Shown here: positions 14,909 to 57,659 of the stretch, in pieces
Position numbering within the stretch: position 1 is the first letter of the stretch
Layout: the number at the start of each line of letters is the position of its first letter
Source: Amphibalanus amphitrite
Taxonomy: Eukaryota > Arthropoda > Thecostraca > Balanomorpha > Balanidae
Direction of reading: 5' to 3'
Assembly: GCF_019059575.1 (NCBI RefSeq)
Contig: NW_024881870.1
Coordinates: 434,001-498,000, forward strand
Length of the DNA stretch: 64,000 bases
The notes under the pieces: model-generated
Told to the model about the DNA's origin: nothing
The model's input: the letters and a program-made list of their open reading frames with translations, nothing else
The model's database searches: none
Translations under genes and position numbers: made by a program

Positions 14909-16100
14909 TTAACCCGCGCCCTGCTGGGGGTCCTGGATTTCCACGCCCTGCTGGGGGGGGTGTTTGAACACCCCCCCTTCTAACTCGGCTCCTGGGCCAC
15001 GTAGCGATACGCGGAAGGCGGCGTTCGAAAGAGCGTCAAAAATAATGACGAAATCACTTCGGTCAATTTTTTGGTCAGGTCAAAGGTCAGGTCACCAGAG
15101 GTCATTGAAGGCAAAATTTCGCCGATTTCCAGGTCGAATGTCGACAATTTCCAAGAAGCCAACGCATAACTCGGGAACCAATAGAGCTACAGCGCCGCGG
15201 AAAAGCGCATTCGATAGCCCTATTAACGCCCTTTCTGAGTAATGTTCTCAGATTTGACCTAACGTCAACGGTTTTGCCTGCAGGGGGCAAAAACTGCAAA
15301 AATAGCCGATTTTTTCGGAAACAGTTTTTCTGTAATAAATTTTGACCCAAGCCTTGTACGAGCTTACTTTTACCGGCATCGTGTTCCTCTCGTCAAGACG
15401 CATCGAATGAACTATAACTTGACCTTGAAAGGTCAACTTGAAAATTTGACCTCAGGTCAAGGTCATGACCTGACCGGAAAGGGTCATGTTGCATATCAGT
15501 CGATCCGCATCGTCGAGCTGAACACATCTAAGGCGTTTTCATCGCTCTAGCATGCCTCTATCAAAAGTTATTTGCGAAAAACTGTTAGATACCATTCGTG
15601 ACCTAAGATGACCTCAGGGCATAAACAGGGGTCACGGACACCATTTTCATGTTCAGTGTGTCTAAACCACTTGTAATTCAGTGTTTGGGAGTGTTTATAA
15701 TGTCTTTCGTCCAAAAGAGGCGCATTTCAATTTTCTCCCATTGACTTATAATGGGGAGGTCGCAAAATTGACCTGACCTTAGGTCATCGATATCAAAATT
15801 CTGAGATATACATTTTGTACATGCTATTGCTCTTAGCAATCGCTGAAAGTTTGAAAGCGATCGGTCACTCGGTGTAGCTATGACAGACATTGAAACTTTT
15901 TATGAGGTGAGGTCACTTCAAGTGACCTGGTGACCTGACCTTGAATGACCTTGGTCTGAAATTTTCACAACATGTGTAGAATTGATGTATGATAAGGTGT
16001 ACCAAAAACGGCGTCGCTCCGCGCCGCCGTTTTTGAGATATTCGCGAAAAACCACAAGGGGGGGTGTTCAAACACCCCCCCCCAGCAGGGCGCGGGTTAA
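14909..16100. mobile_element. piggyBac-like non-autonomous element (MITE)
   Basis: The element is bounded on both sides by TTAA (14909-14912 and 16097-16100), the target duplication typical of piggyBac. Its ends are inverted repeats starting CCCGCGCCCTGCTGGGGG; the CCC...GGG termini also fit the piggyBac superfamily. The left end carries a short internal duplication of the GCCCTGCTGGGGG motif, so the two ends differ by about 27 bases. Just inside each end is a G-run/C-run hairpin around TGTTTGAACA. The 1.1 kb interior has no convincing transposase frame, so it is non-autonomous. It is rich in GGTCA/TGACC words, including adjacent AAGGTCAAGGTCATGACC near 15455. Confidence 0.72.
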
Positions 16101-21761: not shown

Positions 21762-24028
21762 CTGGGAAATAGAGCAGGATGAGCCAGGGTGAACAACTGA
21801 GAAATAAATCAAAATGTGTCAATACACTATCATGGCCTTAGAAGAGATCAGCAGAGACAAGATATGTGTGTGTGTCATTTAAAAAGTTAGTAAAAAGTAT
21901 TGGTGTTTATTATAAATTACTTTTACCATCACATCAAATTTTCACTAGAATTAAGATATATCCCTGATCTTGATCTAGGAAGCTAACATTGAAATGTAGG
22001 CATTGAACTGTACGGATAAATGTAACTTTAAAAAGTGTCTGATCACAAATCAAGCTAACTGACAAATGCTAAAATACTAACAGCTAGGAACATCCTTAAT
22101 TTTAATTCATTATTCAAGGGATGAATGAGAGGCCCTTTCCTCATAGCCATTCAACAAACTTCTAGGAAGAGACCATATTGATAACTAGGGACTAGGTAGG
22201 TAACTTCAATTTTCACAGCATAGCAGTTGGCTTTTGTCATAAGTCAACCAAAGTAGCTTGGACTGCCAGAAGTTTCAGAGGTGTCAAGCATCAAATGAAC
22301 TCGTAGGTCGTAACTGAACCAAAAACTGAAGCAGATGAATCATTGAATAAGGAAAATCATTCAATGACAAATTATATTGGAGGAAGGTCAACAATATAAA
22401 GTGGACATCATGTGAAGATAAAAATTGTTTGAAAATCAATCTCAAAGGCAAAACTATTGATATCAGTGAGTTGCATCATGCAATGAAAGTTAGTCAACTC
22501 ATTCATAGGAGATAAAATGATAGGAACCTACTGTGGTGCACGACATTTTACATTGCATATGATTAATCATGAACATAAACCTGACCTAATTGTATAAAAA
22601 ACATAACTTTCCATATTATTTTCTAGGCACCATTTGATCGGCGCCAAAACTCATAGCACTGCACGCCAATTATAGTAACATTAAGCTTTTCAGCGATAAT
22701 TGTTTCAACCCCAAACCATCTCATTAACTGAAACTTCGTTTGTAGCCACATAAAACGAGTCATATTGACCTACCCGCTATTTCAGAGACGCACGAAGCAG
22801 ACACCACACGACACGAAGACCGCCGGACAACAACTGAAACAAAACTGACACCTCACGAAAGCCCGGGGGCAAACAGCTGATTGCGTTTATCAAGAGGTAA
22901 AAAAGGCACATCTTTATCAATCTTGTACATGATTCTTTCGCCAGATTCTTAATATTTTGATCTAAGATATTTTAAATATATACGACGCGTCATATAAATA
23001 GTTAAAGTATAAACATTCATTACAAAAAGGTACTAAAACCAAGTTGCTATGACAACACTTCCACATATGTCACCGTGACTGGCGCAGTAAATACAAAATA
23101 TGGCGAAAAAGCGCAAAAAGGTAAACAAAAATTCAACTTGAGATGTGATTTTTGAGATATTTTGAGATTTTTCGTGAGAAGTACAGCCGTGGGATCACTG
23201 TTTTAGTCGAATTTTATTTAACGGCACCCACTTAAATAAAAAAATAGCACTCTCAACATGGGCAAGCCTATTTTTCAGAACCGAATGGTGGGCTCGGATC
23301 CAAATTATGATTTTGATTCTTTACCTACCTTTGGGCGAATCCAAGGCGAATCCGGCCTGAACCTAACCCAAGCTAACCTGAGCCATTTTTGACCATTTTT
23401 TACTGGACCATGCTCTTCATACTGGGTTTCATTAACCACTGGGTGCATCATGCACACCACCGGTCAAATCCCTCTTTTGCGCCCTGTGCAAAAAAAGCAA
23501 AAAAAAAATCTATTTTTCAGAACTGAATGGAGGGCTCGGATCCAAATTATGATTTTGATTCTTTACCTTTGGGCGAATCCAAGGCGAATCCGGCCTGAAC
23601 CTAACCCAAGCTAACCTGAGCCATTTTTGACCATTTTTTACTGGACCATGCTCTTCATACTGGGTTTCAATAACCACTGGGTGCACCATGCACACCACCA
23701 GTCAAATCCCTCTTTTGCACCCTGTGCAAAAAAAGAGTGCAAAAGACGGAAATGACCCCAAGCTCTTAATAATCGCTTTCAAAATTCAAAGACATCTCAA
23801 CTGGTGTAAGTGTCATCAGATATTTGATGTTGATGTCAGTGTTTTATTCCAGCCTTTCATGTTGGATGCAAGAGCCAAGCTGCTATGCACCCTAACCCAA
23901 AACAACAACAACAGCCTCTCATGTTTTAATAACACTGGCTTATAATTAACATGTGCATTATTTTTCAGTTGAAAATTATGCAACCTGATCCTGTCTAAAA
24001 GAAGACTCTTCTCAACTAGCAGTCGATC
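21762..24028. other. Head-to-head interval between ATP10-like gene and CFAP74
   Basis: AT-rich sequence separates two divergently oriented genes, so it should hold both promoters and the 5' UTRs. A GC-richer patch on the minus strand at about 22745-22870 is a possible non-coding first exon or promoter of the ATP10-like gene, but I see no TATA box that I would defend. The interval also contains the tandem duplication at 23269-23736. Confidence 0.5.
23269..23736. repeat. Tandem duplication, two copies of a ~242-bp unit
   Basis: Copy 1 starts at 23269 and copy 2 at 23511, both with TATTTTTCAGAAC. They match closely through GGCTCGGATCCAAATTATG to CCTCTTTTGC and end in an A-rich stretch. A few substitutions and a 4-base difference (TACC present once or twice) separate the copies, so the duplication is fairly recent. 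No coding content is seen. Confidence 0.85.
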
Positions 24029-27000: not shown

Positions 27001-30000
27001 CCGGTTCCCGGGGCCCGGGTCCATTTGGTCGTAGCACCACGGTTTTCTCATCTGGCCGCTGAGAACCTCCATGTGCCAGACGAATAGAAGCACTAGCAGC
27101 CGCAGAAGATGTCGGTACACAGCCATGGTGAGGGAGGACGGAGTGAGCTGCGGCAGACCCCGGCGGTGACCGGTGCCGGAGGCAGGCTGTTTGGCAGTGA
27201 CCGGCGGCGGAGAGACGCTCAGAATGGTTCAGAGTGAAGCTAAGGGCTAACGTGGCAGGGCCGGTCCTTGAGACGTTGTTTTCGTGACATTTCAGTCACG
27301 TTCGGTCGCCGTGACCCATTTTCGTGGCGTAGGTATCGATCGAGCGACTGTTGTTGGCCTGTCGCGGCCGACGGGAAAAGTGCCGACCGATGGCCGTTGA
27401 CCTTCCACTTCAATTGTGCTAGTGTCTGGGGGAATGGACGAGTCGGTAGTGTTACCGGACCGGACATCAGCCTGTTTGTTTGAAAAGTAATTGAACTTCT
27501 TTTCAGTACTTAGGACGCGTGCATCATTGATAGGCAATAAAAAGTTAGCAATAAGATCAGTTTTATTGTTTTTTTTTTTTTTGTTCTCCCAAATGATGGC
27601 TGTAAACGTTTCCGCTTCTTCTTTTCATCCTGCATTTCCCTCTTGATCTTACTGTTCCCCTTTGATCGCTCGGATGTCTCCCTAATCTTCTCTCCCTCTC
27701 AGCACTCACCAACCCCGTCCCCTCCCCAGGCGCACCTGGAGCAGCGCCGTGCCACTCGGGCGGCCGCCGAGCAGTGTCGTGTCGACACCGCCGCTCGTCA
27801 GCGGGACAACACGCGGCGCATCGTCGCACGGCTGGTACAGGAGGAGCGGCGCCGGCTGCAGTCACCGCGGCCGCCGCCGGCGCCGCTCCGACCCCGCCGG
27901 CCGGGCCGCTCCACCCGGCCCCGCAGCCTGCCGCCGCTGACCGCAGAGTCAGGGCAGCTGCCGGACTCTACCACAGGTATAGAACAGTCAGCCAGTCCGG
28001 ATAGCGGTGGAGCAGGCGAGGAGGCTGGCCGGAGTGCGGAGACTACCGTCTCGGCGATAGCGCGCCCGACTGACTCGGCCTCAGCTGATGGTCTGACTGA
28101 CTCGGCCGGTCAGCATGAGGACATGCACACGCTGTCCTCTCCGGACTCTTCTGGATCGTCAACTCCGCCTCGCGGGCCCACCTCGGACGCCCACGGTAGA
28201 GCGCGGGCCTCCAGACTCTCCTCTGGAGATCTGGAGAGGCTGCAGCACCTGCTGGAGACGTCGGCCAAGGGAGGGGGCGGGGATGACGAGGGTGACGATC
28301 TGGGTGACGAGGGCTCCCTGGGCGGCTCGCTGGGCAGTGTGGGACGCCAGTGGATGAAGAGGCGGCCCGATATGCCGGTGGAGAGGCCGCCGGTCACCAG
28401 CGACCCGTGTCCGTTCAGCTGGAAACCGGACGTCATCGAGTTCAAGGTGGGTTGTGAGGTGGCAGGAAGAACATGGGAGTCTATTCGAACTGTTCATAAG
28501 GTTAACGTATATTTAGACTGGAAGATATATGTTGACCAATATGGTGTGAGAAATGAAAGGAGTTGCTACTTTCGTACTGTCGAACCTCCAAAAAAGAGTT
28601 TATGCTAGGCTGGGCTAGGTTCTTGTTCAAATCATGTTTCAAGTTTTGCAAAATGATATGATCGTTTCGCTGCCCTCCCACACCGAGGAAATGTATAAGT
28701 ACTCATGTTGTCCCTTGACAATGGTCTAAATATTGTTCTCTCCTTCCCACAGGACTTCCAGGTGGGCTGGACGTACTACCGGCGTGTCTCGATCGTGAAC
28801 CTGTCCCGGACCCGCTCCAGCTGTCGCTACATCGGCCTGTTCGAGCACAACTACTACCAGCTGGAGCAGCCGCTGGCCGAGAGTCTGCGCGTTCATTTCC
28901 AGCCGCCGGGCTTCCTGGGAACCGGGCTGGCGGCGAAACTCGAGCTCGAGTTCACACCGCGTATGCTCGGAGACGGAGAGTGTCTGGTACGATTCCAGGC
29001 GCCAAATGGGGAGTTCCAGGTGCCTGTGAGGTTCGTGGCTCAGCGAGCAGAGCCGAGACTAGACCGGAGAGCGGTGGAGTTTGGGGATCTGGTGCTGGGG
29101 ACGCGAGTGAAGCGCAGTGTGGTGCTGAGGAACACTGGTAGTAAGGGGTGTCGGTTCACCGTGAGGCCCCTGGTACCGACCCCCACGGGGAGTGCGGAGG
29201 AGGAACGGACAGAGAGCCAGAGGCAGGTCACCTCTGCGGCCGCGGAGCACTCGGCAGTCGCTGTGGACAGGCCGGGCAGGGCGCCGCGAGGCGGGACTGC
29301 CGGGTCGGTCGGAGCTGTGGCAATCACTATCGCTCCGCGCGGAGGTACAGCAGGGTCGGTGGGAGCCGTGGTACCGATTTCCAGCTCTCCCGACGGAGCG
29401 GCGGTGGTCTCGACGTCCCCAACCTCCTCCCCCGCTCCTGCGACCAACGACTCACCCGCCCCTGCGACCACAGCCTCGCCAGCTCTCGCTTCGGGCTCTG
29501 CAGGGAACTCTGGGGCGTCATCATCAGCTGGTCCCGCCGCGTCCACCACCTCCCCAGAACCCGCAGTCACCACCAGCACCGAACAACAACCCACCTCCGC
29601 CAAAACGGCCACTGACATCGTCTCATCAATCCTGGATCAGCTGTTCGACCGGCTGCCCATCATCGACTTCGACGGGGGACTGGGGGTGTGCGGCAGCGGC
29701 GAGGGCGAGCTGCCGGCCGGCGGCAGAGCGCGACTTCACCTGGGCTGTGTGGCCGACCTGGAGGGCGCCTGGAGACAGCAGTTCGTCGTCGAGTTTGACG
29801 ATCCCAACTGTGAACCGGTGAGGATGTGGGTTGGTGGTAAACTGGTGAGTGGGTGTCAGCTGGGAGGGGTTAGGATACGGGAAGTGAGAGTGGTGCTGAT
29901 TTTTATTGATGCATTATTGGCTATTTTGGGTGTCGGCTATGATACAGAACATACAGCCACGATGCAGCCGTGGGTACACACGGAAACGACATTTTCTTTA

Positions 30001-33000
30001 CGAAAAAAGTAGCATTCATTCATCCTCGTAGCTATGCGTTTTTTTTTTTGCTGATTTGTGAAGCGTAGCTGGGTAAAAGTATGCTCACTGCTAATAAGCG
30101 CCGACTCTGCCCTATCTTCTGTCCCATATCTATCCTCACACTCCTCTCCCCATCCTCAGTTTACGCTGACGGCGTCCTACTCCGGTCACGAGTTCCCGAT
30201 CTCCGTGCGTAACCCGCACCTCTCGCTGGACATTTGTCTGTGCGGGCTCACCTACTGGGACACCTTCGAGATCGTCAACACCGGTAAAGTCGCCAGGTGT
30301 GTGCGGCTCGATTGAACGTGAGGAACGTGCGTGAATGTATGAAGTGCATATCTCCGTTGTAAATAATGTTCTGTGCTTATGCAGTGATGTTGGGAGTGGT
30401 TACGCTTAAGTTTGCCCAGTTGGATTTTTGTCGTGGTACTGGCAGGGTTTTAAGTGAGGGCGTTTCTAGTCTCATTCTTATTCTAGTGTCTTATTTGAGC
30501 TAGATAAAACTGTGACTATGGCTGGGCAATGGGCATGTTGAATGATCTGACTACTGTCACTTCGATTTCAGCCGTGTGCGAACTGTTGTGCCCGATGATA
30601 TGAAGCCGTTCGTGGACATCCAGGGATCCCCGGCGCTGGTTCAGGCCGACAACTCGTTCAAGGTCAAGATTTTCTTCAAACCAAAGTAAGTGCCTTTGTT
30701 CGCAGTAAGAGCGGCAGCTGCTAAGCAATAAGCATGGCACGCACTTTGGAAGTTACCGAATAAATAACTCATTAACAAACCCGATGAGCCGCATATTAGC
30801 TTATCGACTTTTGTCGATTGATACACCAACGGATAGTGATGGACTTTTGCTAGTATAGCCATATTGTCCTCAGCTGTCCCAAATTTCCCCGTCTAACCTC
30901 TACTCCCCTCTTTCAGACGTTCGCTGCTCAGCCCTCCACACCGGTTCTTCGACCCCGCCACACACATTCTCGACTTCCCAGTGTCCTTCCACGTGGACGC
31001 CGGTTCACTGGGCGCCTCTCTGGGCGGCGCGCGAGGCGCCCCGATCGTGGGCTCCGTGCAGGCAGCTGTCTCCAGTAACCACGTGTGGCTGAAGCCGGAG
31101 AGAGTCGAGTTTGGGAGGGTCACCCTACTGGAGTCGGCGTGTCGGAGAGTGCAGCTGACTAATGGTGGCCTGACGGTGCAGCAGTGCCACTTCACCGGAC
31201 TGCCGGATGTGAGAACCGAGAGGGCGAGAGACCTAAGGGGGAGGGGGATGGCAGTGTAATAGAAGTGAAACCCTAGACGTCTAGGCTAAAAAGTGATGCA
31301 ATTGGGCGATGGTTGAATCCCAGGAACTTAATGAAACTCGAAAATTTGCATGATCATTTTTACAGTGGCTCGTATCGCTGCGCTGCTAAATTCAATGTTT
31401 ATGCTATATAATGGTTTTGTTAAAACAAGAAATGTCCACATCGCTCCACCAGCTATCCGCTGAACTACTTGCTGAGCATGATATCACTGCGTTTGTCTCA
31501 CCAGTCCGTCTGTATGACCGCCTGTTCTGACCCTTACACCCTCTACCTCCACAGAGTGTGACCGTTCAGCCGGGTAACGGCGGTGCGGTGCTGCTGCCGG
31601 GGGAGACGGTGCCTCTGGACGTCATCTTCTCCCCGTCCGTGTCCGGTCAGCACCAGTTCTCACTGGTCGTGGAGACGCTGGATGGCGGCAGGTAGGAGCG
31701 GGGAAAGGAAGTTGACAGGCATCACTCGTCACTGCCCCACGGTGTTTGAGATAGAATTGAAAGTCAGGCTCGTAGGAGGGATATTTGGATGTCATTATTT
31801 GCTGGCGCTCGTTGAATGGTCGATCGCTGCTTGTGAAGTACAAAGTGTTTCGAGTTGTCAGCCTCTTCCTCTTTCTCTGTCCCTTTCTCTTCCTACCCCT
31901 CCTCCAACTCTTCCTCCCTCTCTTCCCAGAGCCACTGTCACATGTCACGGCCTGGCCACCACCCCGCCCCTCTCTTTGAGCGCTACCAGTATCAAACTGA
32001 GCGGCGTGCCTGTCCAGGGAGAGAAGAAGGCGGCCGTTTACGTGCAGTGTCCTAAGGTGCGTGTTTACCGTGGCAATCTGCGTCGCTTGTAGACATCACT
32101 CGACCGACTCGATATTTTGCTTTCTGTGATTGCGATTGGTTTCACTGAGCTCATTGGAATGTCCATGATGCTTTAGCTCAACACTTTGCTTTTAGCACCA
32201 GCTTTAACTTTTTCTGTCCTTCCCCTCCAGGTACCGCTGGCTGAGGAGAAGTTTTTCGCCATGGGCGGCAGTTTCGAGTTTCAGCCGCCAGATGGCATCC
32301 CGGTGGCCATACACCCCATGGTGGGGTTCGTACCCTACAAACAGGTCAGCCGTGGTTTGGTTACCGTATCTGGGTGGGGGTGGGACAATGACTAACTTCA
32401 GTAAACGCTTGTCAAGTCTGGGGTAATTCGAGTCACCTTTAGTTGACGTAGTTGAGTCGTTTAGAGCGGAGAAGTGACCAAATTTTGCCGATCTACGCAC
32501 ACACCTGGTTATAGCGGTTAGATTTAATAAGCTTTAGTGCTCCTCTGTGTTACCGAGCTGGCAACACGGTGGATGTGCTGAAAACGCAATCATCTCTTCA
32601 CGGTGATGTATTGCATAACGCATATCTATGTACAGTGCTGAGTACAGAGTACAGACATTGCAAGATTGGCAAAAACCGTGTTATTGTTTCAACATATGCA
32701 CATTGCACACTGACTGATTACGCGTTAATGTAACTATGGCTGATACGTGTAATAGAGTTTTTAAAAGCAGCCTCACGACTAACTACGATCCCGATGAACA
32801 CTACCCGAATGTATAGAAGCTGATCGGGCCGGCTGAGGGGCCCCGCCGCCGCGGTGTCAGCGGCCGGCGTCTTCTGCCCCCCGCGGAGGGGGCGGGGGAC
32901 TGGGTGGGGGTGGGGGTCGGGCCGAACCCTGCCACCCGCGCGGCCGGCTGGGGCGTGCAGCGGCCGCCGGGACGGCACGCCCGCAGCTCCTCGTCGTAAG

Positions 33001-36000
33001 TTTCGCCCTCCTTGCAGCTGAACAGTTCCGGCTGCCCGCCGCTGCAGAGGTAGAAGTGCTCACAGTCGGACGCCGCGTGCTTCCCATCCGACGGACACAC
33101 AAAGATATCGCTGGCGTCGTAGGCGGGAGTGGTAGGCGGCACTGGTGTTGTCGGCAGACCGGACTCGTCGATACCCAACATCCCAGCCTTGAGAGCGCGG
33201 ATCATGGGGAACGGCTCTCCGGTACAGAACCCGCGGAAGTCGTCCAGAGAGACCGTCCAGACGGCGACTCCGCCCAGACCCGCCTCCCGAGCCATGCGAG
33301 CCTTCATCATAAGCGACGTCTCGTCGTCGAAGGCAACAATCTGATCCTCACCGGCGGCGTACGGTCCCACATCCTGAGGGAACGGCCGCGCCGCCGTCCA
33401 GCCCCTCCGACCCGTCTTGTCGCAGATCTCGTACGTAGCCAGAGATCCTTTGGCACGAGTGATGGGCCCGGCAGCACCGGGTCCGGACGAGCTAGCGTAC
33501 AGACCGGCGAGCCGGGGATCCTCCAGGGTGAAACTCATCCCGAACGTTGGCACGGCGAGGTTCAGTTTGGCCATGTCTGCACCCATCTGTTTGAGCGTCT
33601 CGAGGGTGGTCAGGATATCTCGTCCGGCGGCGTCGGCCGGCGCTCCGGGTGGGGTCCGCAGCGGCGCGTGATGAGAGGTGACGCTCCGCTCAGTCACCTG
33701 GTATCGGTAACCCAGAACGTTGGCGTAGTCCACCGCAGCCGTCACTCGCTCCATGTCAAAGTGCTCCCGCAGCTCGTCTGGATGTGGAGTCAGCTCGACG
33801 GCCAGCAGCAGCCGCCGGCGTCCCGTGGAGGTCGTATCGCGGTCAAACGCCGCTCGCAGTGCCTCCAACAGACCGGCGTGGTCCTCGGGCGCGTGCGGCG
33901 GCTTCCAGTCCACATCCAGACCGTCGAAATCGTGTTCACGGAGGAATTCCACCGCCGCCTCTGCGAGCTGTTTGCGGCTCTCAGCCGTGGCGGCGGCGGC
34001 TCGGAGCGAATCCTGCTGCTGTCCGCTGCCTCCGATCATCGTGAGCACCTTCAGATCGGGGTTGTGCTCGCGGAGTTCCACTGTGCTCCGGTAGCCGCCG
34101 GTGACAATATCAGCGAACACGTCCAGCGGTCCGACCCGAAGTGTCTCGGCGTGCACCCCGGCTCCCACATAGTGGATATGGGTGCACAGGTGCGGCGGGA
34201 TGTTGGTGGGAAGGAAGCGGCCCAGCGGCGGACGGTACCGTGCCCAGTTCTCGTAGAAGCACACCACCCGTGGGGCGGACTGGCCGGTGGAGGAAGGTGG
34301 TAGTGCTGTGAGCAGCAACAGTAGCAGTGAAGACGAGGGGAGCTGAAACCAGGAGCGTGTTGGTTAGAGGCATATACATAGATAGGTATCTCAGCAGTCC
34401 AACATTATGCGTTCTTTGACCTTGACGATCGGCAAATCTGCCATAGTCAGCTATCAGCTCTCATTGCTCGAATTGAGTGTATCCAGCGTATTTGGCGTCT
34501 TTCTTGTCGCCCGCCTGCTGATTGTGGTGCATTGTTACGGGGCAGCGCTTGAGAGGAAAATACTCGTAAGGGACTGGGTGGGGTCGAGGGGTGAGATTCT
34601 TGTGACAGGCTCAAATTATGGTAGGAATTTTCTTAAAAGGTCTCAGTTTCCGCCTAAATATTTTTCAGCGAATCATTGCATGTGCCTGCAATGCTTAGAC
34701 TACTTCAACTGTTCGATCTCTTCACCGTCACCTTCAGACTTCAAAACCAGTATAGTGAGCACTGAGCAAGTTGCATCAGTCAGGAGGCACCGCATGCATA
34801 AACAATCGATTCCCAGTAAAGAAAAATGCAAGCACACGGCCGTCTACCTGTACCCAATGTTTCTCTCCTACCCACTCACCTTCATATTAACTCGTAGCAC
34901 TCTCGTCGCCTCTCCCCAACACGCTCCTTTCAGCGCCCGGGCGGAGAAGTGGCAGTGACCACCGTCCCAGCGCACCCTATAAACTGCCCTCCCGCCGCCA
35001 CTCCGCCGACTACTCGCCCAGTAGCGCTGTGCCTCGCGCCGCTCTGAGCCCCGCACGGCTCCCACAGATGCGGAGATGGCGCGAAACCGGTTTGGCGCCA
35101 CTATTCTGTCGGTGCAGGGACAGACGTGCTGCTAAAAGCTGGCTGCTCTGGAGAGGTAGAGCGCGGCTGAGGTGTGGGTTTACCGGCCGCCTCGGGGAAC
35201 TTTGTGGGGCTCGGGATGATTTGTACTGGTTCGAAGAAGCTGGTGGTCGGTTTTTGGAATCCCCGCGATGAGCAAGGCGCTCAAAAGAAGTCCCGGGTGA
35301 CTGAGTTCACCCAGTTCTCAGACTCGGTGATAATATCTTGTGGAAGCTTTGAGGTACTGATTCATGTTCGTGGAATTTTAGCGGTTGTATGTACCACGGC
35401 ACCGGGAAGTTTGTTTTTGGACACACATCCTAGGCTTCACTACTAGACATTAGCAAAAGACACGCTATGTGGTAACAGAAAATCCGAAAACCACGATACT
35501 TTTCCTAAATAATATTTCCCATGTTTATTACCATCCTTTTTTCACGTCACTGACAGATGTATTTGCTGGCGGGCTTCCCACGGTTGCGGGCCTACCCGCT
35601 CCGACTCTAGCGTCGGTATTCACCTCCCGTTCCCGTGCGTTTCCTCAGAGTCGCCGTGTCGAGGTGACGGTGTCGCCCATCCTGGATCCGACCGAGGTTC
35701 GTATCACCGCCTCGCTCCTCCGCTACGAACAGCTGGAGATGGAGCGGGCCGCCGAGCCGGAGGTGTCCGCCAAAGGTGACAAGGTGCGTCCGAAACGGCA
35801 CGGCACGGAACATCAATCTGAGAACGTCTCATAACGATATGCTATGAGCAATATGCGATATGCGAAATGGCTTTTGATCATAAGCTCCCGATGGCGTGCA
35901 AGTTTTCTAGTGTAACTCTTATACGATTCTTATGGTTTCCTGCCTTTGAAGTAACAGTAGCTCAATGGCTATGTTGGTCAGTTTCAGTTTTTATTTTTAT

Positions 36001-45100: not shown

Positions 45101-47573
45101 CCGGCTGCTGCTGCGCGCATCTGTCAGCTCTCGCGCAACGTCGAGGGCCGTCGCCGAACCTTTTCATTGCGAGTTGCGTACCTACTTCTGGAGTCCTGAG
45201 CATTTCACGAAAGGTTTCGTGACCGCCTATTTTGAGTCCTCGTGATTTGAGATAAATGCATGAGCGCGATTGATCCTCGATTGAAGAATGAGCATCTTAC
45301 TAGCAAAAGCTATCCGCTGGGAAAGAGGAACATTCGTTTAGAATAGCAATGTGCGGTCAAAAACATGTAATATGTCGGGTCGCGGAGGTTAGCTGATAGG
45401 TTGATAGGACCTTGTAAAGGTGCCCCCCCCCCTCTCCCCTGGAATTAGATAGTTTGGACTTTGGAGTATATGGTTTTGAATGCAACCGCATATGTGCGAT
45501 GCATTGTGAACTATTATGCATTTTTCAAAGCATAAGACAGGAGTGGTCACTGGTCAGAAAGCATTCTTTTCCGGTGACATGGGAAGCGATGGTGTCATGT
45601 TAAGTCTTCCAAAGAGTTAAGCCGTACCGTTTACCAAGCAAAGTGCAAAGTTTTCGGCGTTACGATCCATAACGAGCACGCTTCAAGTATGGCCCGATGG
45701 GCAGAACGCTGGCGACAGCCGCATATCGGTGGTACAAATCGTCAGTATCGCGGCACTGCAAAGCTAGCTATCCAGGCTGAAAATGCTTTGCGGTACCAAT
45801 TTGGGTTCTTATGTAACAATTCCCTTGGTACGATGGCACGTGAACGCAGTGGAATGTAGACAACTGTCCTTTATATAGTCCCGAAAGCAACGTAGCTAGA
45901 GGGGTGTGCTTTAATAGAATATACACACCGCTCATGGCTCACGAGTCGTCATTATATACTCTTTATCGAACCTTGCATCATACCATCACAAACCTCACCG
46001 TCTGGTGTGGTTTTTCCGGCGGTACCTGATCTGACCTGACCGGACCTTTCTCTGTGTCACCACAGGAGGTGCTCTCTGGCCAGAAGAACGAGGTGGTGTG
46101 CCGGCGGCACCTGACCTGACCTGATCTGTCCTCTCTCCCCTCAGGAGGTGCTCTCGGGCCAGCAGAACGAGGTGGTGTGTCCGGCGGCGCTGTTTAACGT
46201 GATTGCCGGCGCCCACCGCGCGGCCAACACGGAGATCCAGAGTCTGATTCAGAGGCAGCTGGGCACCGCCAACCCGGCCCAGCTCAGCCAGGCCATCGAC
46301 CAAATGGTGAGTAGGCAGTGTGTGGGGTGGTGTGGGAGGGGCGCACTCTGAATCGCAGTATGGTCGTGTCAGTGTAAAGGAGTTGAAGTCTGCTATAAAC
46401 GTGCTATTTGTGCTGCAGCATTTTAAGGCATTTATGCTATTAAAAACCGTCATGTCATTGCCTTTCTTGTTTGGTGCGATGACAGCTGTTCGGCTGCCTG
46501 AAACAATGTATGCGATTGATATGATCAAGTTATCATACAATGCAGTCTCATTGCCGACATTTTAGCAGAACGCAGATTTTCAGCAGATCGTAAATTCGGC
46601 TCCGTCTCACCTCTTTCCCTTCCCACAGGCTGCTGAGAAGTCCTCCGTGAAGAGCTTCTTCCGGGCGTACAGCATACCTCGCGTGCGCACCGAGTGCTCG
46701 AAGCCGCAGGTGACCTCTGTGTCCAAGCAGCAGCTGTGCGCGCGGCTGCTGCAGCTGCTGTCCCCTCCCACCGGCCGGGAGCTGGACCTGGGCGCCGCCG
46801 AGGCGGTGCGGCAGATCAACTCTGACGTGTCGGCGGCCACGGACGGTCTGATTTCGGACCTGTTTACCCACCTGGATCCGGACTCGCGCCTGGTGCTGGC
46901 CGCTGCTCTGGCCTTCTCCAGTCCCTGGCTGCCCGAGCTCACCATCTCCACCAAGGAGCTGCCATTCCGCCGGCCGGCCGGCGAGCAGGCCGTGCCCGCC
47001 GTGCTCGTCTCCGGCTCGATGCGGTTTTTGAACGCCAGCGACGACGGCCTGTACGGCGTGGCCGTGCCGTACAACGACAACGCGTTCCACATGGAGATGT
47101 TCTTCTTTGTGGCAGCGAACCGGAGTGAGGACGTCGTGAGCAAGCTCTCCCGGCGGCACTACGAGGCGCTGGCGGAGATATCGCCGCTCGAGACCCAGGT
47201 GCTTCTCACCTTCCCCAAGTTCTCCATCAAGTCCGTCAAGCACGACTACCGCGACGTGGCCCTGTCGCTCGGCCTGGGCCCGATGCTGGAGGGCGGCCTG
47301 GGGCCCAACGGTGCCGACAAGGTGGACCAGCTCGTGCACCGGGCCGTCATCGATGTCGACGAGAAGGGTACGCGCGCCGCTGGAGCGGCCGGTATCAGCA
47401 TCATCCCGCGAGCGGGCTCTGACGAGAGCACGCCGCGCGCCGTGCTGCAGCTCGACCGGCCGTTCGTTGCCTCTGTAATGCACGTGGAGCTGGGCCTGCC
47501 CCTGTTCACGGCTCACGTGGTGGACCCGCTGGTCGGCGCGCCGGCCGGCCGCCGCAGTCCCGTCAGGTTCTGA
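42189..47573 (+). CDS. Secreted serpin with a Pro-Arg reactive centre, four exons
   Basis: Exons 42189-42222, 42948-43036, 46145-46306 and 46629-47573 join in frame to 409 aa, the usual serpin size. Residues 1 to ~23 are a signal peptide (MDTTGRHYLRAAALLLLAA, split by intron 1). Helix A is LLDLNDHLLR; NEVVCPAALFNVIAGAHRAA matches the helix B region; INSDVSAATDGLISDLF and DSRLVLAAALAFSSPW are the helix F and strand 3A blocks; the end RPFVASVMHV...LFTAHVVDP is the conserved breach/strand 5B. The reactive loop is EKGTRAAGAAGISIIPRAGS: P17 Glu340, P15-P14 Gly-Thr and small P12-P8 residues mark an inhibitory hinge. Aligned with alpha-1-antitrypsin this places Pro at P2, Arg356 at P1 (CGA at 47409-47411) and Ala at P1'. 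It should inhibit trypsin-like clip-domain or clotting-type proteases; the target is inferred only. Confidence 0.9.
44885..44961. repeat. Two tandem copies of a 38-bp unit in serpin intron 2
   Basis: AGCTATGAGCCAGCCC...CCCGTAAATCTGCATAG occurs at 44885 and again at 44923, with three differences. It has no apparent function. Confidence 0.8.
46014..46144 (+). repeat. Duplicated start of serpin exon 3 with its acceptor (pseudo-exon)
   Basis: A CACCACAG acceptor followed by GAGGTGCTCTCTGGCCAG (46066 on) repeats the true exon 3 start (46145, GAGGTGCTCTCGGGCCAG) 79 bases upstream, including the CT-rich and CCTGACCTGA intron sequence before it. A third partial echo of the unit is seen near 46005-46030. 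Unlike the CFAP74 case, 79 is not a multiple of three and the upstream frame soon meets a stop (CACCTGACCTGA), so splicing to the upstream acceptor would abort translation. Confidence 0.78.
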
Positions 47574-48872: not shown

Positions 48873-48874
48873 TA

Positions 48875-49764
48875 GGGGAGAGTGGGGCAAAGCGGCCACC
48901 CATCGTTTTAGCCCTTCATAGCTGGCGTCAGTTCCAATTTATGGTTTCCAATTATACTTCTCTTCACGGTCGTTCGAATGAGCCAGACCGGGGTTTCAGG
49001 CCCATCACCATTGTTCTGTGAAACACGGAAAAGCATTTCTTGCCAGGTTACCAACTATGTTTACAATTTCTAAATGTTATGTTATTCCATAACCGTTTTG
49101 GAATTTTTATAAGCGTTCTTGTCCATGCATTGCATGGTTATCGTACATACATGTATTCTACCAATTTTAATGTTTTTTACCCCACTAATAGCTAAGCTGG
49201 AATATTTTTGTCTCGGACGGTATGCGCGGGGCAAAGTGGCCGGAGCAAAGTGGCCACCCCCAATTGGCCATAAGTTGCTTCCATCTGGATAAAAAAACAT
49301 TATTTATATTGAAATGTGTCGTCATGCATTCATCTTGGCCACTTTTCAGTTGCATGAGTTACCAAATAATGCAATTAAATGTTTATTTTCATGAAAATCC
49401 TTTCTTTGTTTACCTACAGGTGGAAGATGATAAAGTAAACATCCATCCTCGATTAACCTTGTCACCATCAAATACACTAGTCGTACACGAGGCAACTATT
49501 TTGTTTCTCATATCGGGACTTGAGAAGACGCCGGTGGCCGCTTTGCCCCAGGGTATGGGGCAAAGTGGCCAATATGCATAGGTTTAAAGTTTTGTCAATA
49601 TCTTTCATATGTGAACGCCTTTGGAAATAAAACGCAGTTGAAATAAAAGGCAACTTACTAGGGATCACATTGGTATAGAAAGAATCTTTCCAAGTTTAAA
49701 AATCAAGCGTTGGCATCGTGAGAAACGTTAGGGTGGCCACTGGCCGCTTTGCCCCACTCTCCCC
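48875..49764. mobile_element. TA-flanked MITE (Tc1/mariner-type target), 890 bp
   Basis: Both ends carry the 24-base inverted repeat beginning GGGGAGAGTGGGGCAAAGCG and ending GCCA, and each end is flanked by TA (48873-48874 and 49765-49766). TA duplication points to the Tc1/mariner/pogo group. The core word GGGGCAAAGTGGCC recurs inside (about 49229, 49246 and 49558) and once inverted with the end sequence near 49535, so subterminal repeats seem to be part of its structure. The longest internal frame (49222-49581) has no transposase motif, so it is non-autonomous. Confidence 0.78.
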
Positions 49765-50219
49765 TATCATATAACTTCGGTTATCCCCAATATGATGCCT
49801 ACATTCTGCAAAAGGTTGGTTGTGAATTGTAAAGTATTTCAACTCGAATCAATGCTTGGTGGACCTCGACCCCACCTCGCCGGTTCGACCCTTGTTTACC
49901 TAGAGCTTCGGAAAACACGTCAAGCACTGTGGCGCTTGGAGTCAGGTCAAAGACGACCGATATTTGCCATGACGTTTCGGATATAGGCGCTCGCTGCTCG
50001 CTGTGGAAGGCTTATTTGCCTTTTATGCCTTGTTAACTTCGATCATTCTCCGATCCTCCGATGATGATGCTCCCTACCTATATCTCGCCCAGTGTGCCCC
50101 TTCCCAATATCCTATTTTCAAATTTATCATTCTTTTGTTGAAAGCAGAGTCGTTGACATTTTCAGCCGATTGTCATCAAATTCCTGCGAATTCCTGTCCG
50201 GCTGTTGCCCTAAAATCCT

Positions 50220-50228
50220 TCCACATCG
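50220..50228. repeat. Left 9-bp target-site duplication of the foldback element
   Basis: TCCACATCG lies directly before the left terminus ACGTGCGTGAAG and is identical to 57651-57659 after the right terminus. Confidence 0.85.
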
Positions 50229-50385
50229 ACGTGCGTGAAGTTAGCGTCGTATTCCGCGACGGATTCAGCGTCGAGTCCGAATTTCAACTAAACCCAACCT
50301 AGCCGATGCAGTTTGGGACGCTGATTCCGAATATCGTATTCATTTCAAATTTCAAGGTCATCTTCAAGGTCAAATCACGGATTGA

Positions 50386-50805
50386 AATTGAGTCCCCGAT
50401 TTTTCCTACACCGATCGTCCGATCCGATTTCTGAAGGTCGCATTCGAAAGCTAGGGTCAGAATCTCGAGTTCCCTAATATATACCTTATTAAAAATATTT
50501 GACCTTAAAGGTCAAATCACGGATTGAAATTTTGAGTCCCCCTATTTTTTCTACACCGATCGTCCGATCCAATTTCTGATGGTCGCATTCGATAGCTAGG
50601 GTCAGAATCTCGAGTTCCGTAATATATACCTTATTAAAAATATTTGACCTTAAAGGTCAAATCACGGATTGAAATTTTGAGTCCCCCTATTTTTTCTACA
50701 CCAATCGTCCGATCCGATTTCTGATGGTCGCATTCGATAGCTAGGGTCAGAATCTCGAGTTCCCTAATATATACCTTATTAAAAATATTTGACCTTAAAG
50801 GTCAA
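50386..50805 (+). repeat. Satellite array block 1 (3 monomers, left arm)
   Basis: About three ~145-bp monomers in plus orientation, each with AAATCACGGATTG, CACCGATCGTCCGATC, TAGGGTCAGAATCTCGAG and TTTGACCTTAAAGGTCAA. The outermost monomer carries the variants TTCGAAAGC and TTTTTCCTACACC, which recur only in the outermost monomer of the right arm. Confidence 0.9.
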
Positions 50806-53154
50806 CAGAGGTGAATAAAACTCAAAAGCTGTCACCTACGCGATGTCTAGCTGTCACGATTTTTTTTTCAAGTACCTAATCTTGAAACAGAAGGTACTTT
50901 TTGACGTTTTCTCATCACCTTTTTAGACCTAAAAATGAAAATGAGGCTAGAGTGTTAGAAAGAAACTGACCTTTCAAATTTCGAACTCTGGGCGTTACAA
51001 CGCATCACCACATTTCAGTGACACAACACAACAAAAATAAATCACTACCATCCAACTTACCTATAGGTCTGATCGACTTCCTATAGCTCGTCCTGGCTTC
51101 CTGATCCAGTTCAATCAGAACTCACGAAAGCAGGGACCCGGGAACGACTTTCAAGTTGGGGGGGCGAGCCTAAAATGCCTGACATGATGCATATGAAGCA
51201 GTGGCGTAGTTAGGGGTCTAAGGGGACACGTACCCCCCCCCCCACCCCACCCCCCCACCCATCGGGTTGAAAGGGACCCTCGGGTCCGAGGGGACCTGCG
51301 GTGCCATTTGACCGCCGAGGGTTAACGATGTCCATATTTCGACTCAGAATGGCCTCATAGGTCTCGTTAGAGCACCTTATGGGCCCTAAATAACCAAACT
51401 ATAAATCTCAACAAGGGCCCCACGCCGGCTTCTGAGGGAATCTTGCAGATTTTAAGGGCCCCTCGGTGGTCTCCAAAGGCCCGTTACTGGCCTCTGAGAG
51501 TTCTTACCGGCCTATGAGGGGCCAGTTCTAGGGGCATTTCCCGCCTGTGATGGTCACACACTTATTTTTCCGAGGGTCCCATAACGGCAACTGTGGGGGC
51601 CCTCATCGGCGCCTATGAGTGCCCACACCGGTGTCTCTGAGCGTTTCACACCCCCAACTCTGAGTGCCTATACCAGTGCTTTTTAAAGCCCTATATCGGC
51701 GGCTCTAAGGACCCAACAGTCAACACCTGCGCATCTAAAGGCCACCCACTGGAAACTTTTGAGGGCCCCACACCGGTGACTCTGAGCCCTGAGGGCCCCA
51801 CCGGCGTCTGACAGTACCATGCCGGTCTCTAAGGACCCCACACGACTTCTTCTGCCGGCCTAGGGGCCCCGTGCCGGTCACTGAGAACCCCCTGTTGGTT
51901 TGTAGAGGGTTCGCGTCAGGAGCTCTAAAGACCCCACACCCGTCTGTAACGGCTCCACACCAGCGTCTATGAGATCCCAGAGCAACGCCTGTAAGGACCC
52001 TCACCGGCGCCTCTGAGAGAATCACACTAGCACCTCTGTGCGCCCGAACCAGCACCTGCATGGCGGCCCATACCAATGCCTCTAAAGGCCCCTTACCGGC
52101 GGTTCTGAGGGCCCTATACGCCGGTGATTCTGAGGGTGCTACCGATAACCGAATGCATCAGACAAGCCCTTAGTGTCGCTGAGCTTTAATCCCATAGATA
52201 CCGGCCTTCCGAGGGCGCCACGTCAGTGCACTCATTGCCCCACACCCCTCCCTCACACCCGGAGCGGGTAAACTGTGGTATAACTTATACCTATATTATA
52301 GCAATGATTTTACCACCGTTGTACGTTATATATTTCTCAAAGTTTTCTCAAAATGGTCTAGTATAAAATCTGGCCTGCCAAACTCATGGCCAAGGCCAGG
52401 CCCAAACCAAAGCGGGATGACAATAGCAGATGTTGTGAAATCGATACTGTATCAGCAGAAACCATTCAGATAGCTAGGAAAATGCCGTGTGATGATGTTT
52501 AGATGGGAGACAAGAAGGAAAGAAGTCCGGAAAAGGGAAGAAAGATCCTTTCACGCTGCCTCAATGTTGAGGGGGCGCCGCCCCCTCGGCTCTCAAGTTG
52601 GGGGGGCAAGCGCCCCCGCTGCCCCCCCTGTTCCCGGGTCTATGAAGGATTGTCAATTGTCACTGATTCACTTGCCTTTGCTTCAGTAGTCAGAACCAAT
52701 TATCAACGCACCTACCAAGTTTCTGGGACCGATGGTCATGGACCTCACCCCAGTTGTGGCCCAGATGTGACGTCCCCCGTCCCAGTCGCCCGGTCCTTCC
52801 CTACTCCGGCGGCGGCCAAGGCCGCGCCGGTCCCCGGCACCGTTCAACCGGCGACGAGCGGGGACGAGCTGTCGCGCTGTCGCCGTTTTTCCTGCGTTAT
52901 CTATGGCGCTTCACAACGCACCGGCTGTCGCACCGGCGGGATTTTTCAGCCCCAGCTGTCTACAAAGAGATGACGCTGTTCAATTTTTGTGCCGTGGTCC
53001 ATAGTGGCCCTCTATGGGAAGACAGCTCTGATTTTAGCGGAAACGGACTAGTTATCTATTTTAAATGCATCAACTGAGATGCTCGAATCTGTCTCTTTAT
53101 TGCTGTGGCTGTCAGCTACGCACGCAGGCGAGTAGCAGGGTTTTTTCACCTCTG
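50806..53154. mobile_element. hAT-like element nested in the foldback left arm, 2,349 bp
   Basis: Its ends are imperfect inverted repeats (CAGAGGTGAATAAAAC at the left; the right end read inward is CAGAGGTGAAAAAACC). It is flanked by a perfect 8-bp duplication, AAGGTCAA, at 50798-50805 and 53155-53162, which lies inside a satellite monomer; with one copy removed the monomer is intact. Eight-base duplications and CAG...CTG ends fit hAT. I see no transposase frame: the interior is a poly-C/G-rich patch (51225-51265), a degenerate minisatellite (about 51400-52150) and GC-rich unique sequence. It must have arrived after the array had formed. Confidence 0.8.
51400..52150. repeat. Degenerate GC-rich minisatellite inside the hAT-like element
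   Basis: Words such as GGGCCCCACACCGG, CTCTGAGGGCCC and CGCCTCTGAG recur every ~25-40 bases with many changes, giving a fuzzy tandem repeat. No coding meaning is apparent. Confidence 0.6.
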
Positions 53155-55740
53155 AAGGTCAAATCACGGATTGAAATTTTGAGTCCCCCTATTTTTTCTA
53201 CACCGATCGTCCGATCCAATTTCTGATGGTCGCATTCGATAGCTAGGGTCAGAATCTCGAGTTCCCTAAAATATACCTTATTAAAAATATTTGACCTTAA
53301 AGGTCAAATCACGGATTGAAATTTTGAGTCCCCCTATTTTTTCTACACCGATCGTCCGATCCAATTTCTGATGGTCGCATTCGATAGCTAGGGTCAGAAT
53401 CTCGAGTTCCTTAATATATACCTTATTAAAAATATTTGACCTTAAAGGTCAAATCATGGATTGAAATTTTGAGTCCCCCTATTTTTTCTACACCGATCGT
53501 CCGATAGGATATCTGATGGTCGCATTCGATAGCTAGGGTCAGAATCTCGAGTTCCCTAATATATACCTTATTAAAAATATTTGACCTTAAAGGTCAAATC
53601 ACGGATATTCGACCTTAAAGGTCACATCACGGATTGAAATTTTGAGTCCCCCGATTTTTTCTACACCGATCGTCCGATCCGATTTCTGAAGGTCGCATTC
53701 GATAGCTAGGGTCAGAATCTCGAGTTCCCTAATATATACCTTATTAAAAATATTTGACCTTAAAGGTCAAATCACGGATTGAAATTTTGAGTCCCCCTAT
53801 TTTTTCTACACCGATCGTCTGATCCGATTTCTGATGGTCGCATTCGATAGCTAGGGTCAGAATCTCGAGTTCCCTAATATATACCTTATTAAAAATATTT
53901 GACCTTAAAGGTCAAATCACGGATTGAAATTTTGAGTCCCCTATTTTTTCTACACCGATCGTCCGATCCAATTTATGATGGTCGCATTCGATAGCTAGGG
54001 TCAGAATCTCGAGTTCCCTAATTTATACCTTATTAAAAATATTTGACCTTAAAGGTCAAATCACGGGTTGAAATTTTGAGTCCCCCTATTTTTTCTACAC
54101 CGATCGTCCGATCCAATTTCTGATGGTCGCATCCGATAGCTAGGGTCAGAATCTCGAATTCCCTAATATATAGCTTATTAAAAATATTTGACGTTAAAGG
54201 TCAAATCACGGATTGATATTTTGAGTCCCCCTATTTTTTCTACACCGATCGTCCGATCCAATTTCTGATGGTCGCATTCGATAGCTAGGGTCAGAATCTC
54301 GAGTTCCCTAATATATACCTTATTAAAAATATTTGACCTTAAAGGTCAAATCACGGATTGAAATTTTGAGTCTCCCTATTTTTTCTACACCGATCGTCCG
54401 ATCCAATTTCTGATGGTCGCATTCGATAGCTAGGGTCAGAATCTCGAGTTCCCTAATATATACCTTATTAAAAATATTTGACCTTAAAGGTCAAATCACG
54501 GATTGAAATTTTGAGTCCCCCTATTTTTTCTACACCGATCGTCCGATAGGATATCTGATGGTCGCATTCGATAGCTAGGGTCAGAATCTCGAGTTCCCAA
54601 ATATATACATACCTTATTAAAAATATTTGACCTTAAAGGTCAAATCACGGATATTCGACCTTAAAGGTCACATCACGGATTGAAATTTTGAGTCCCCCGA
54701 TTTTTTCTACACCGATCGTCCGATCCGATTTCTGAAGGTCGCATTCGATAGCTAGGGTCAGAATCTCGATTTCCCTAATATATACCTTATTAAAAATATT
54801 TGACCTTAAAGGTCAAATCACGGATTGAAATTTTGAGTCCCCTACTTTTTCTACACTGATCGACCGATCCGATTTCTGATGGTCGCATTCGATAGCTAGG
54901 GTCAGAATCTCGAGTTCCCTAATATATACCTTATTAAAAATATTTGACCTTAAAGGTCAAATCACGGATTGAAATTTTGAGTCCCCTATTTTTTCTACAC
55001 CGATCGTCCGATCCAATTTCTGATGGTCGCATTCGATAGCTAGGGTCAGAATCTCGAGTTCCCTCATATATACCTTATTAAAAATATTTGACCTTAAAGG
55101 TCAAATCACGGATTGAAATTTTGAGTCCCCCAATTTTTTCTACACCGATCGTCCGATCCGATTTCTGATGGTCGCATTCGATAGCTAGGGTCAGAATCTC
55201 GAGTTCCCTAATATATACCTTATTAAAAATATTTGACCTTAAAGGTCAAATCACGGATATTCGACATTAAAGGTCACATCACGGATTGAAATTTTGAGTC
55301 CCCCAATTTTTTCTACACCGATCGTCCGATCCGATTTCTGATGGTCGCATTCGATAGCTAGGGTCAAAATCTCGAATTCCCTAATATATACCTTATTAAG
55401 AATATTTGACCTTAAAGGTTAAATCACGGATTGAAATTTTGAGTCCCCCGATTTTTTCTTCACCGATCGTCCGATCCAACTTCTGATGGTCGCATTCGAT
55501 AGCTAGGGTCAGAATCTCGAGTTCCCTAATATATACCTTATTAAAAATATTTGACCTTTCACGGATATTCGACCTTAAAGGTCACATCACGGATTGAAAT
55601 TTTGAGTCCCCCGATTTTTTCTACACCGATCATCCGATCCGATTTCTGAAGGTCGCATTCGATAGCTAGGGTCAGAATCCCGAGTTCCCTAATATATACC
55701 TTATTAAAAATATTTGACCTTAAAGGTCAAATCACGGATA
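53155..55740 (+). repeat. Satellite array block 2 (about 17 monomers, left arm)
   Basis: Plus-oriented ~145-bp monomers (the AGGTCAAATCACGG word recurs at 53301, 53446 and 53591). A variant with a ~38-base extra segment (CACGGATATTCGACC...) occurs near 53605, 54650, 55250 and 55560. A variant reading CCGATAGGATATC at 53501 returns at 54543, showing a ~1,042-base higher-order repeat of about seven monomers. Confidence 0.92.
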
Positions 55741-57500
55741 TTCGACCTTAAAGGTCAAATATTTTTAATAAGGTATATATAAGGGAACTCGAGATTCTGA
55801 CCCTAGCTATCGAATGCGACCATCAGAAATCGGATCGGACGATCGGTGTAGAAAAAATAGGGGACTCAAAATTTCAATCCGTGATTTGACCTTTAAGGTC
55901 AAATATTTTTAATAAGGTATATATTAGGGAAATCGAGATTCTGACCCTAGCTATCGAATGCAACCTTCAGAAATTGGATCGGACGATCGGTGTAGAAAAA
56001 ATAGGGGGACTCAAAATTTCAATCCGTGATTTGACCTTTAAGGTCAAATATTTTTAATCAGGTATATATAAGGGAACTCGAGATTCTGACCCTAGCTATC
56101 GAATGCGACCATCAGAAATCGGATCGGACGATCGGTGTAGAAAAAATAGGGGGACTCAAAATTTCAATCCGTGATTTGACCTTAAAGGTCAAATATTTTT
56201 AATAAGGTTTATATTAGGGAATTCGAGATTCTGACCCTATCTATCGAATGCGACCTTCAGAAATCGGATCGGACGATCGGTGTAGACAAAATAGGGGACT
56301 CAAAATTTCAATCCGTGATTTGACCTTTAAGGTCAAATATTTTTAGTAAGGTATATATTAGGGAAATCGAGATTCTGACCCTAGCTATCGAATGCGACCT
56401 TCAGAAATTGGATCAGACGATCGGTGTAGAAAAAATAGGGGGACTCAAAATTTCAATCCGTGATTTGATCTTTAAGGTCAAATATTTTTAATAAGGTGTA
56501 TATTAGGGAACTCGAGATTCTGACCCTAGCTATCGAATGCGACCATCAGAAATTGGATCGGACGATCGGTGTAGAAAAAAATCTGGGGACTCAAAATTTC
56601 AATCCGTGATGTGACCTTTAAGGTCGAATATCCGTGATTTGACCTTTAAGGTCAAATATTTTTATAAAGGTATATATTAGGGAACTTGAGATTCTGACCC
56701 TAGCTATCGAATGCGACCATCAGATATCCTATCGGACGATCGGTGTAGAAAAAATAGGGGGACTCAAAATTTCAATCCGTGATTTGACCTTTAAGGTCAA
56801 ATATTTTTAATAAGGTATATATTAGGGAACTCGAGATTCTGACCCTAGCTATCGAATGCGACCATCAGAAATTGGATCGGACGATCGGTGTAGAAAAAAT
56901 AGGGGGACTCAAAATTTCAATCCGTGATTTGACCTTTAAGGTCAAATATTTTTAATAAGGTTTATATTAAGGAACTCGAGATTCTGACCCTAGCTATCGA
57001 ATGCGACCATCAGAAATTGGATCGGACGATCGGTGTAGAAAAAATAGGGGGACTCAAAATTTCAATCCGTGATTTGACCTTTAAGGTCAAATATTTTTAA
57101 TAAGGTATATATAAGGGAACTCGAGATTCTGACCCTAGCTATCGAATGCGACCATCAGAAATCGGATCGGACGATCGGTGTAGAAAAAATAGGGGGACTC
57201 AAAATTTCAATCCGTGATTTGACCTTTAAGGTCAAACATTTTTAATAAGGTATATATTACGGAACTCGAGATTCTGACCCTAGCTATCGAATGCGACCAT
57301 CAGAAATTGGATCGGACGATCGGTGTAGAAAAAATAGGGGGACTCAAAATTTCAATCCGTGATTTGACCTTTAAGGTCAAATATTTTTAATAAGGTATAT
57401 ATTAGGGAACTCGAGATTCTGACCCTAGCTTTCGAATGCGACCTTCAGAAATCGGATCGGACGATCGGTGTAGGAAAAATCGGGGACTCAATTTCAATCC
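55741..57500 (-). repeat. Satellite array block 3 (about 12 monomers, right arm, inverted)
   Basis: The same monomer in reverse orientation. The switch occurs within a copy of the palindromic TTTGACCTTAAAGGTCAAA region at about 55735-55760. The block contains one inverted copy of the CCGATAGGATATC variant (near 56730) and one of the 38-base variant (near 56615). Confidence 0.92.
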
Positions 57501-57650
57501 GTGATTTGACCTTGAAGATGACCTTGAAATTTGAAATGAATACAATATTCGGAATCAGCGTCCCAAACTGCATCGGATAGGTTGGGTTTAGTTGAAATTC
57601 GGACTCGACGCTGAATCCGTCGCGGAATACGACGCTAACTTCACGCACGT

Positions 57651-57659
57651 TCCACATCG
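57651..57659. repeat. Right 9-bp target-site duplication of the foldback element
   Basis: TCCACATCG follows the right terminus CTTCACGCACGT and matches 50220-50228 exactly. Confidence 0.85.

Follow-up and report, generated by a model that had tools for sequence, protein, structure and literature searches.

A 7,422-bp unit at positions 50229-57650 of the window, that is, of the whole 64,000-nucleotide stretch of Amphibalanus amphitrite DNA analyzed here, is very probably a non-autonomous foldback DNA transposon (probability about 0.88), bounded by a target site duplication and inverted ends and built internally of inverted arms of tandem monomers. The unit starts with ACGTGCGTGAAG and ends with CTTCACGCACGT, and identical 9-bp direct duplications, TCCACATCG, lie on its left (50220-50228) and right (57651-57659) sides, beyond which the two flanks differ from each other. 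A single further occurrence of TCCACATCG was found in the whole window on both strands, at 31435; a T precedes both copies of the duplication, and a 10-bp reading, TTCCACATCG, is possible. The outermost 577 bp of the two ends are inverted and identical at 572 of 577 positions, with the first 133 bp being non-monomer: the left terminal domain (50229-50361, plus strand) and its inverted copy on the right (57518-57650, minus strand) agree at 131 of 133 positions. By arithmetic, a 9-bp match so positioned has a chance of about 4 in a million even without counting the 577-bp end match, and chance is therefore no serious explanation of the foldback structure. When the 133-bp end was searched for elsewhere in the window, the remaining matches all had E values of at least 0.27. 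Comparison of the terminal domain with the monomer gave a best plus-strand score reached by 270 of 500 shuffles and a best minus-strand score reached by 63 of 500; the similarity is not significant, and the idea that the monomer detectably derives from the terminal domain was rejected, the resemblance being no better than in shuffled sequences.

Inside the terminal domains, Tandem Repeats Finder and BLASTN concurred on a repeat unit of about 145 bp. Of the 33 monomer rows returned by BLASTN, 20 are forward and 12 reverse, and the remaining one is a 21-bp partial at the center; the monomers are 94-99% identical to the consensus, and their orientation switches once, within 55719-55753. The left arm (plus strand) is composed of an outer portion with L01-L03 and the start of L04 (50362-50805) and a continuation with the remainder of L04 to L20 and a partial monomer at its end (53163-55739), while the right arm (minus strand) carries 12 monomers at 55754-57517. 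Partial repeats of 28, 28, 28 and 18 bp follow L06, L13, L17 and L19, respectively, and one of 28 bp follows R06 (56623-56650, minus strand). A block of seven monomers, L06-L12 (53441-54482, plus strand), is duplicated adjacently, with 1013 of 1041 positions identical to 54483-55555 and 33 gap positions; this duplication would explain seven of the eight additional monomers of the left arm and appears to be the expected trace of unequal exchange or slippage. The arrangement is thus a tandem array of near-identical monomers, as is typical of satellites, and the term satellite refers here to tandem structure only, because every monomer found in the window sits inside the foldback element: BLASTN found none outside 50229-57650.

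A nested insertion of 2,349 bp (50806-53154) breaks the left arm; it splits L04 in two and has its own 8-bp duplication, AAGGTCAA, at 50798-50805 and 53155-53162. The insertion starts with CAGAGGTGAA and ends with TTCACCTCTG, its inverted ends matching at 93% over 14 bp. The ends of hAT transposons begin with CAG, and the nested insertion, which combines an 8-bp duplication with short inverted ends starting CAG, is structurally hAT-like. No Pfam match up to an E value of 0.01 was obtained for its two longest stop-to-stop ORFs, of 156 and 140 aa; a shortened hAT copy would lack the transposase in any case. Because the insertion is present in one arm only, it probably postdates the last homogenization of the arms at that place. 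About 0.8 kb of its interior (51414-52226) consists of short, degenerate, G+C-rich repeats, many of them 15-25 bp long. Much of this architecture had been anticipated by the original prediction, which described perfect 9-bp target duplications, now seen on both sides and extendable to 10 bp, and about 32 monomers of 145 bp with one orientation flip, in agreement with the 20 forward and 12 reverse copies. Its terminal inverted repeats of unique sequence are indeed nearly identical and non-monomer, although 133 bp long and not 160; its inner arms of monomers were likewise confirmed, but it had missed the 2,349-bp insertion and the partial repeats of 18 or 28 bp between some monomers.

Since any two stretches of such an array resemble each other, the register between the arms was tested explicitly. 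The nested insert was removed, giving a left arm of 3,154 bp and a right arm of 1,911 bp, and the left arm was trimmed to the length of the right. Aligned end to end with the whole right arm, the trimmed left arm (its first 1,911 bp) showed 1863/1910 identities and 2 gap positions, i.e., with the insert removed, the arms are in register over 1.91 kb at 97.5% identity; per 145-column block, from the ends inward, the identities are 143, 145, 144, 143, 142, 144, 141, 140, 140, 137, 137, 140 and 142. Among 10 registers, shift 0 gave the fewest differences, 46 in its 11 monomer pairs; each of the eight positive shifts gave 66-79 in 11 pairs, and shift -1 gave 58 in 10. L01 equals R01 exactly, and each has at least 11 differences from all other monomers. 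Same-position variants exclusive to the pair were found in L02/R02 and L08/R08, while those of L06/R06 also occur in L13, and those of L07/R07 and L09/R09 in several other monomers. A permutation test, in which the order of the right monomers was shuffled with R01 fixed (20,000 trials), reached the observed score in 3 shuffles for positions 2-9, 4 for positions 2-12, 100 for positions 2-6 and 85 for positions 7-12. The 28-bp partial repeat after monomer 6 is the same in both arms. Several observations speak against a perfect register: this partial repeat also follows L13 and L17, one off-register variant is present in L05 and R04 only, R03, R10 and R12 have a variant of their own in common, and at positions 10-12 no diagnostic variant is common to both arms on the diagonal. 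Given the in-register alignment, the common 28-bp partial repeat and the position-specific variants, the arms were probably copied, homogenized or converted as units, with imperfect register inside, and the inner monomers appear also to exchange within one arm.

These comparisons bear directly on readings in which the unit is not a transposon. An assembly artifact, e.g., a false palindrome arising from a contig joined to its own reverse complement, is very improbable: 47 mismatches separate the arms over 1,910 columns, the arms hold 20 and 12 monomers, the nested insertion lies in one arm only, and the sequences outside the duplications differ. A false palindrome was rejected on the differences between the arms and on the confinement of the insert to one of them. 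The tandem arrangement of the monomers and their 94-99% identity to the consensus are satellite-like and would suit an ordinary satellite array with an internal inversion and coincidental flanking repeats, but such an array is hard to reconcile with inverted 133-bp ends that are not monomer, with exact 9-bp duplications, or with arms that are in register and have a 28-bp landmark in common. We consider this explanation the least credible of all, and a chance inversion of a satellite was rejected on the terminal domains and the register.

Under the preferred reading, a foldback transposon, the origin of the monomers can be argued in more than one way. A short inverted-repeat transposon may have captured pre-existing host satellite monomers, which then spread inside it, making the element a carrier and not the source. 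This variant of the best explanation, judged on the condition that the foldback transposon is right, is a possibility that we hold to be real but somewhat doubtful. It is favored by a terminal domain with no significant similarity to the monomer, unlike Tetris, for which the source describes a 37-bp stretch common to the two (PMC4079207), and by a proposal for Xenopus, in the cited part of a review, that a MITE captured a tandem repeat already in existence (PMC12628747). The terminal monomer, divergent and identical in both arms, points the other way and suggests that the array has long been part of the element, although it does not reveal whether array or transposon came first. A broader scenario, in which an element family in this host gave rise to a major 145-bp satellite, its arrays grown to tens of monomers in the arms, homogenized between them and seeded by transposition through the genome, is rather unlikely; if it were true, the birth, spread and homogenization of a satellite would be traceable in one lineage. 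By analogy, a transposon as a satellite source is plausible. The suggestion made at the outset, that a transposon gave rise to, or carries, a satellite family, holds insofar as the element carries a tandem array, but no monomer was found outside it in the window.

The unit displays the features of the foldback class, i.e., long inverted arms whose outer domain is non-repetitive, tandem repeats inside the arms in unequal numbers (20 versus 12) and the target site duplication TCCACATCG flanking both ends, and the FB-like assignment originally made from structure is upheld by the in-register inverted arms, together with the duplication and the inverted ends. On both strands of the foldback, excluding the insert, there is no ATG ORF of 60 codons or more, and movement would therefore require a transposase made elsewhere. 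The case for mobility rests on one duplication, since a single foldback copy was seen in the window. Duplications of the Mutator superfamily (MULE) are about 8-11 bp long, and those of the P element are 8 bp. The 9-bp (or 10-bp) duplication fits the Mutator range without being specific to Mutator, and does not match the duplication lengths of the P superfamily (7 bp in Galileo, 8 bp in P); duplication length by itself cannot settle the transposase superfamily.

Within the monomers, the plus strand carries the near-palindrome TTTGACCTTAAAGGTCAAA or its reverse complement 17 + 9 times, with none outside the element. Across 30 of the 32 monomers (L01 and R01 left out), 5 of its 19 columns are variable versus 41 of 126 elsewhere, and of the 145 circular windows, 52 contain no more variants than it does; strong constraint on this palindrome was rejected, as its conservation does not clearly exceed that of the neighboring sequence. 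The tandem repeats in the arms of Galileo are described as holding extra binding sites for the THAP domain of the transposase (PMC3688188), and by this analogy one might guess that the monomers serve as candidate transposase-binding sites. When terminal-domain and monomer sequences were used as exact 21-30-base patterns, viral and prokaryote contig collections gave 0 matches, and Rfam gave 0 matches over the window at the gathering threshold.

We hypothesize that a transposase from elsewhere bound the foldback ends, and perhaps also sites repeated along the arms, excised the element from another place and inserted it at the present site. The monomer array could have expanded through unequal exchange or slippage, and the likeness of the arms may have been maintained by copying one arm from the other, because the arms of a foldback are able to pair. 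Lengthening of the left arm would have come mainly from the duplicated seven-monomer block, and the hAT-like element would have inserted itself into that arm.

Several other features were recorded in the window. A perfect 26-bp inverted pair (48873-48898 and 49741-49766, about 0.84 kb apart), for which a flanking duplication was looked for and none identified, is perhaps a small transposon adjoining the foldback. A second inverted pair, with members of 39 and 40 bp (14941-14979 and 16056-16095, about 1.1 kb apart), is near-perfect and itself nearly palindromic, with no matching flanking duplication at its aligned ends. A 238-bp unit forms two tandem copies at 95% identity with an A-run at the junction (23268-23735), and gene fragments were found for CFAP74 Ig-like domains (28699-30008, plus strand), a GH18 chitinase with CBM_14 (32804-34363, minus strand) and a serpin (46566-47570, plus strand); these fragments fit an animal, and nothing in the analysis pointed specifically to a crustacean or even to an arthropod.

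Comparable elements are on record in other animals. The FB element of Drosophila melanogaster resembles the present unit in having 9-bp duplications and inverted arms that are repetitive inside, and differs in its short repeat units of about 10-31 bp versus 145 bp here. Galileo, a P-superfamily foldback-like element of Drosophila (PMC3688188, PMC3573991), has, in the parts of these papers drawn on here, long inverted ends, about 210-bp tandem repeats in subfamily F of D. mojavensis and unequal repeat numbers between the arms of one copy, and recombination and conversion of its long ends have been proposed (PMC3573991); it differs in its 7-bp duplications, its known transposase and the two or three repeats per arm described for subfamily F. 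Tm1, a Mutator/Foldback family of root-knot nematodes, is described as sharing with the present unit 9-bp duplications, nested insertions and composite inverted ends in which the tandem repeats vary in number, but its repeats are about 14 bp, some members have a putative transposase, and the ends carry asymmetric 7-bp motifs (PMC3169594). Searches of the open-licence PMC literature found no barnacle foldback element, a crustacean example elsewhere being possible, and no crustacean satellite DNA with inverted repeats, Mutator and tandem repeats; in a decapod repeat paper, the words foldback, Mutator and terminal inverted each occurred 0 times (PMC10454600).

Another close match is Tetris of D. 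virilis and D. americana, a foldback without a conserved ORF whose inverted arms contain about 220-bp tandem repeats; in the 2014 publication, the authors argue that the element gave rise to satellite arrays with as many as 66 copies, and expanded arrays inside Tetris are also on record (PMC4079207). According to the same source, the likeness extends to a non-repetitive outer flanking domain followed by tandem repeats in inverted arms, the lack of a conserved ORF, 8-10-bp duplications and variable repeat number (PMC4079207). The novelty of design implied by the original prediction is thus not supported, as Tetris shares both the design and the proposed satellite link. A 2025 review likewise lists, in the part cited, the expansion of internal transposon arrays among satellite origins (PMC12628747). 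From Tetris, Tm1 and this review (PMC4079207, PMC3169594, PMC12628747), the structural class and the satellite link are therefore already known, and the present unit appears to be a good new example and not a new kind of element. Measured against the published description of Tetris (PMC4079207), the monomer is 145 bp versus about 220 bp, the terminal domain is 133 bp versus up to 866 bp, no end-monomer similarity was detected here whereas Tetris has its common stretch, and no inner domain was seen, unlike in Tetris. The arms hold 20 and 12 copies versus three and four in the left arm of two allelic Tetris copies, and satellite arrays are argued for Tetris, whereas the monomers here are known from inside the element in the window. 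What is distinctive is the monomer number per arm relative to the counted Tetris alleles and the short terminal domain without detected monomer similarity; the host presumably also differs from those of the known systems. The present unit may extend the Tetris-type link between foldbacks and satellite-like DNA to another animal, and, with position-specific variants in both arms, one copy records both the upkeep of arm likeness and the lengthening of an array, a record useful for testing satellite origins.
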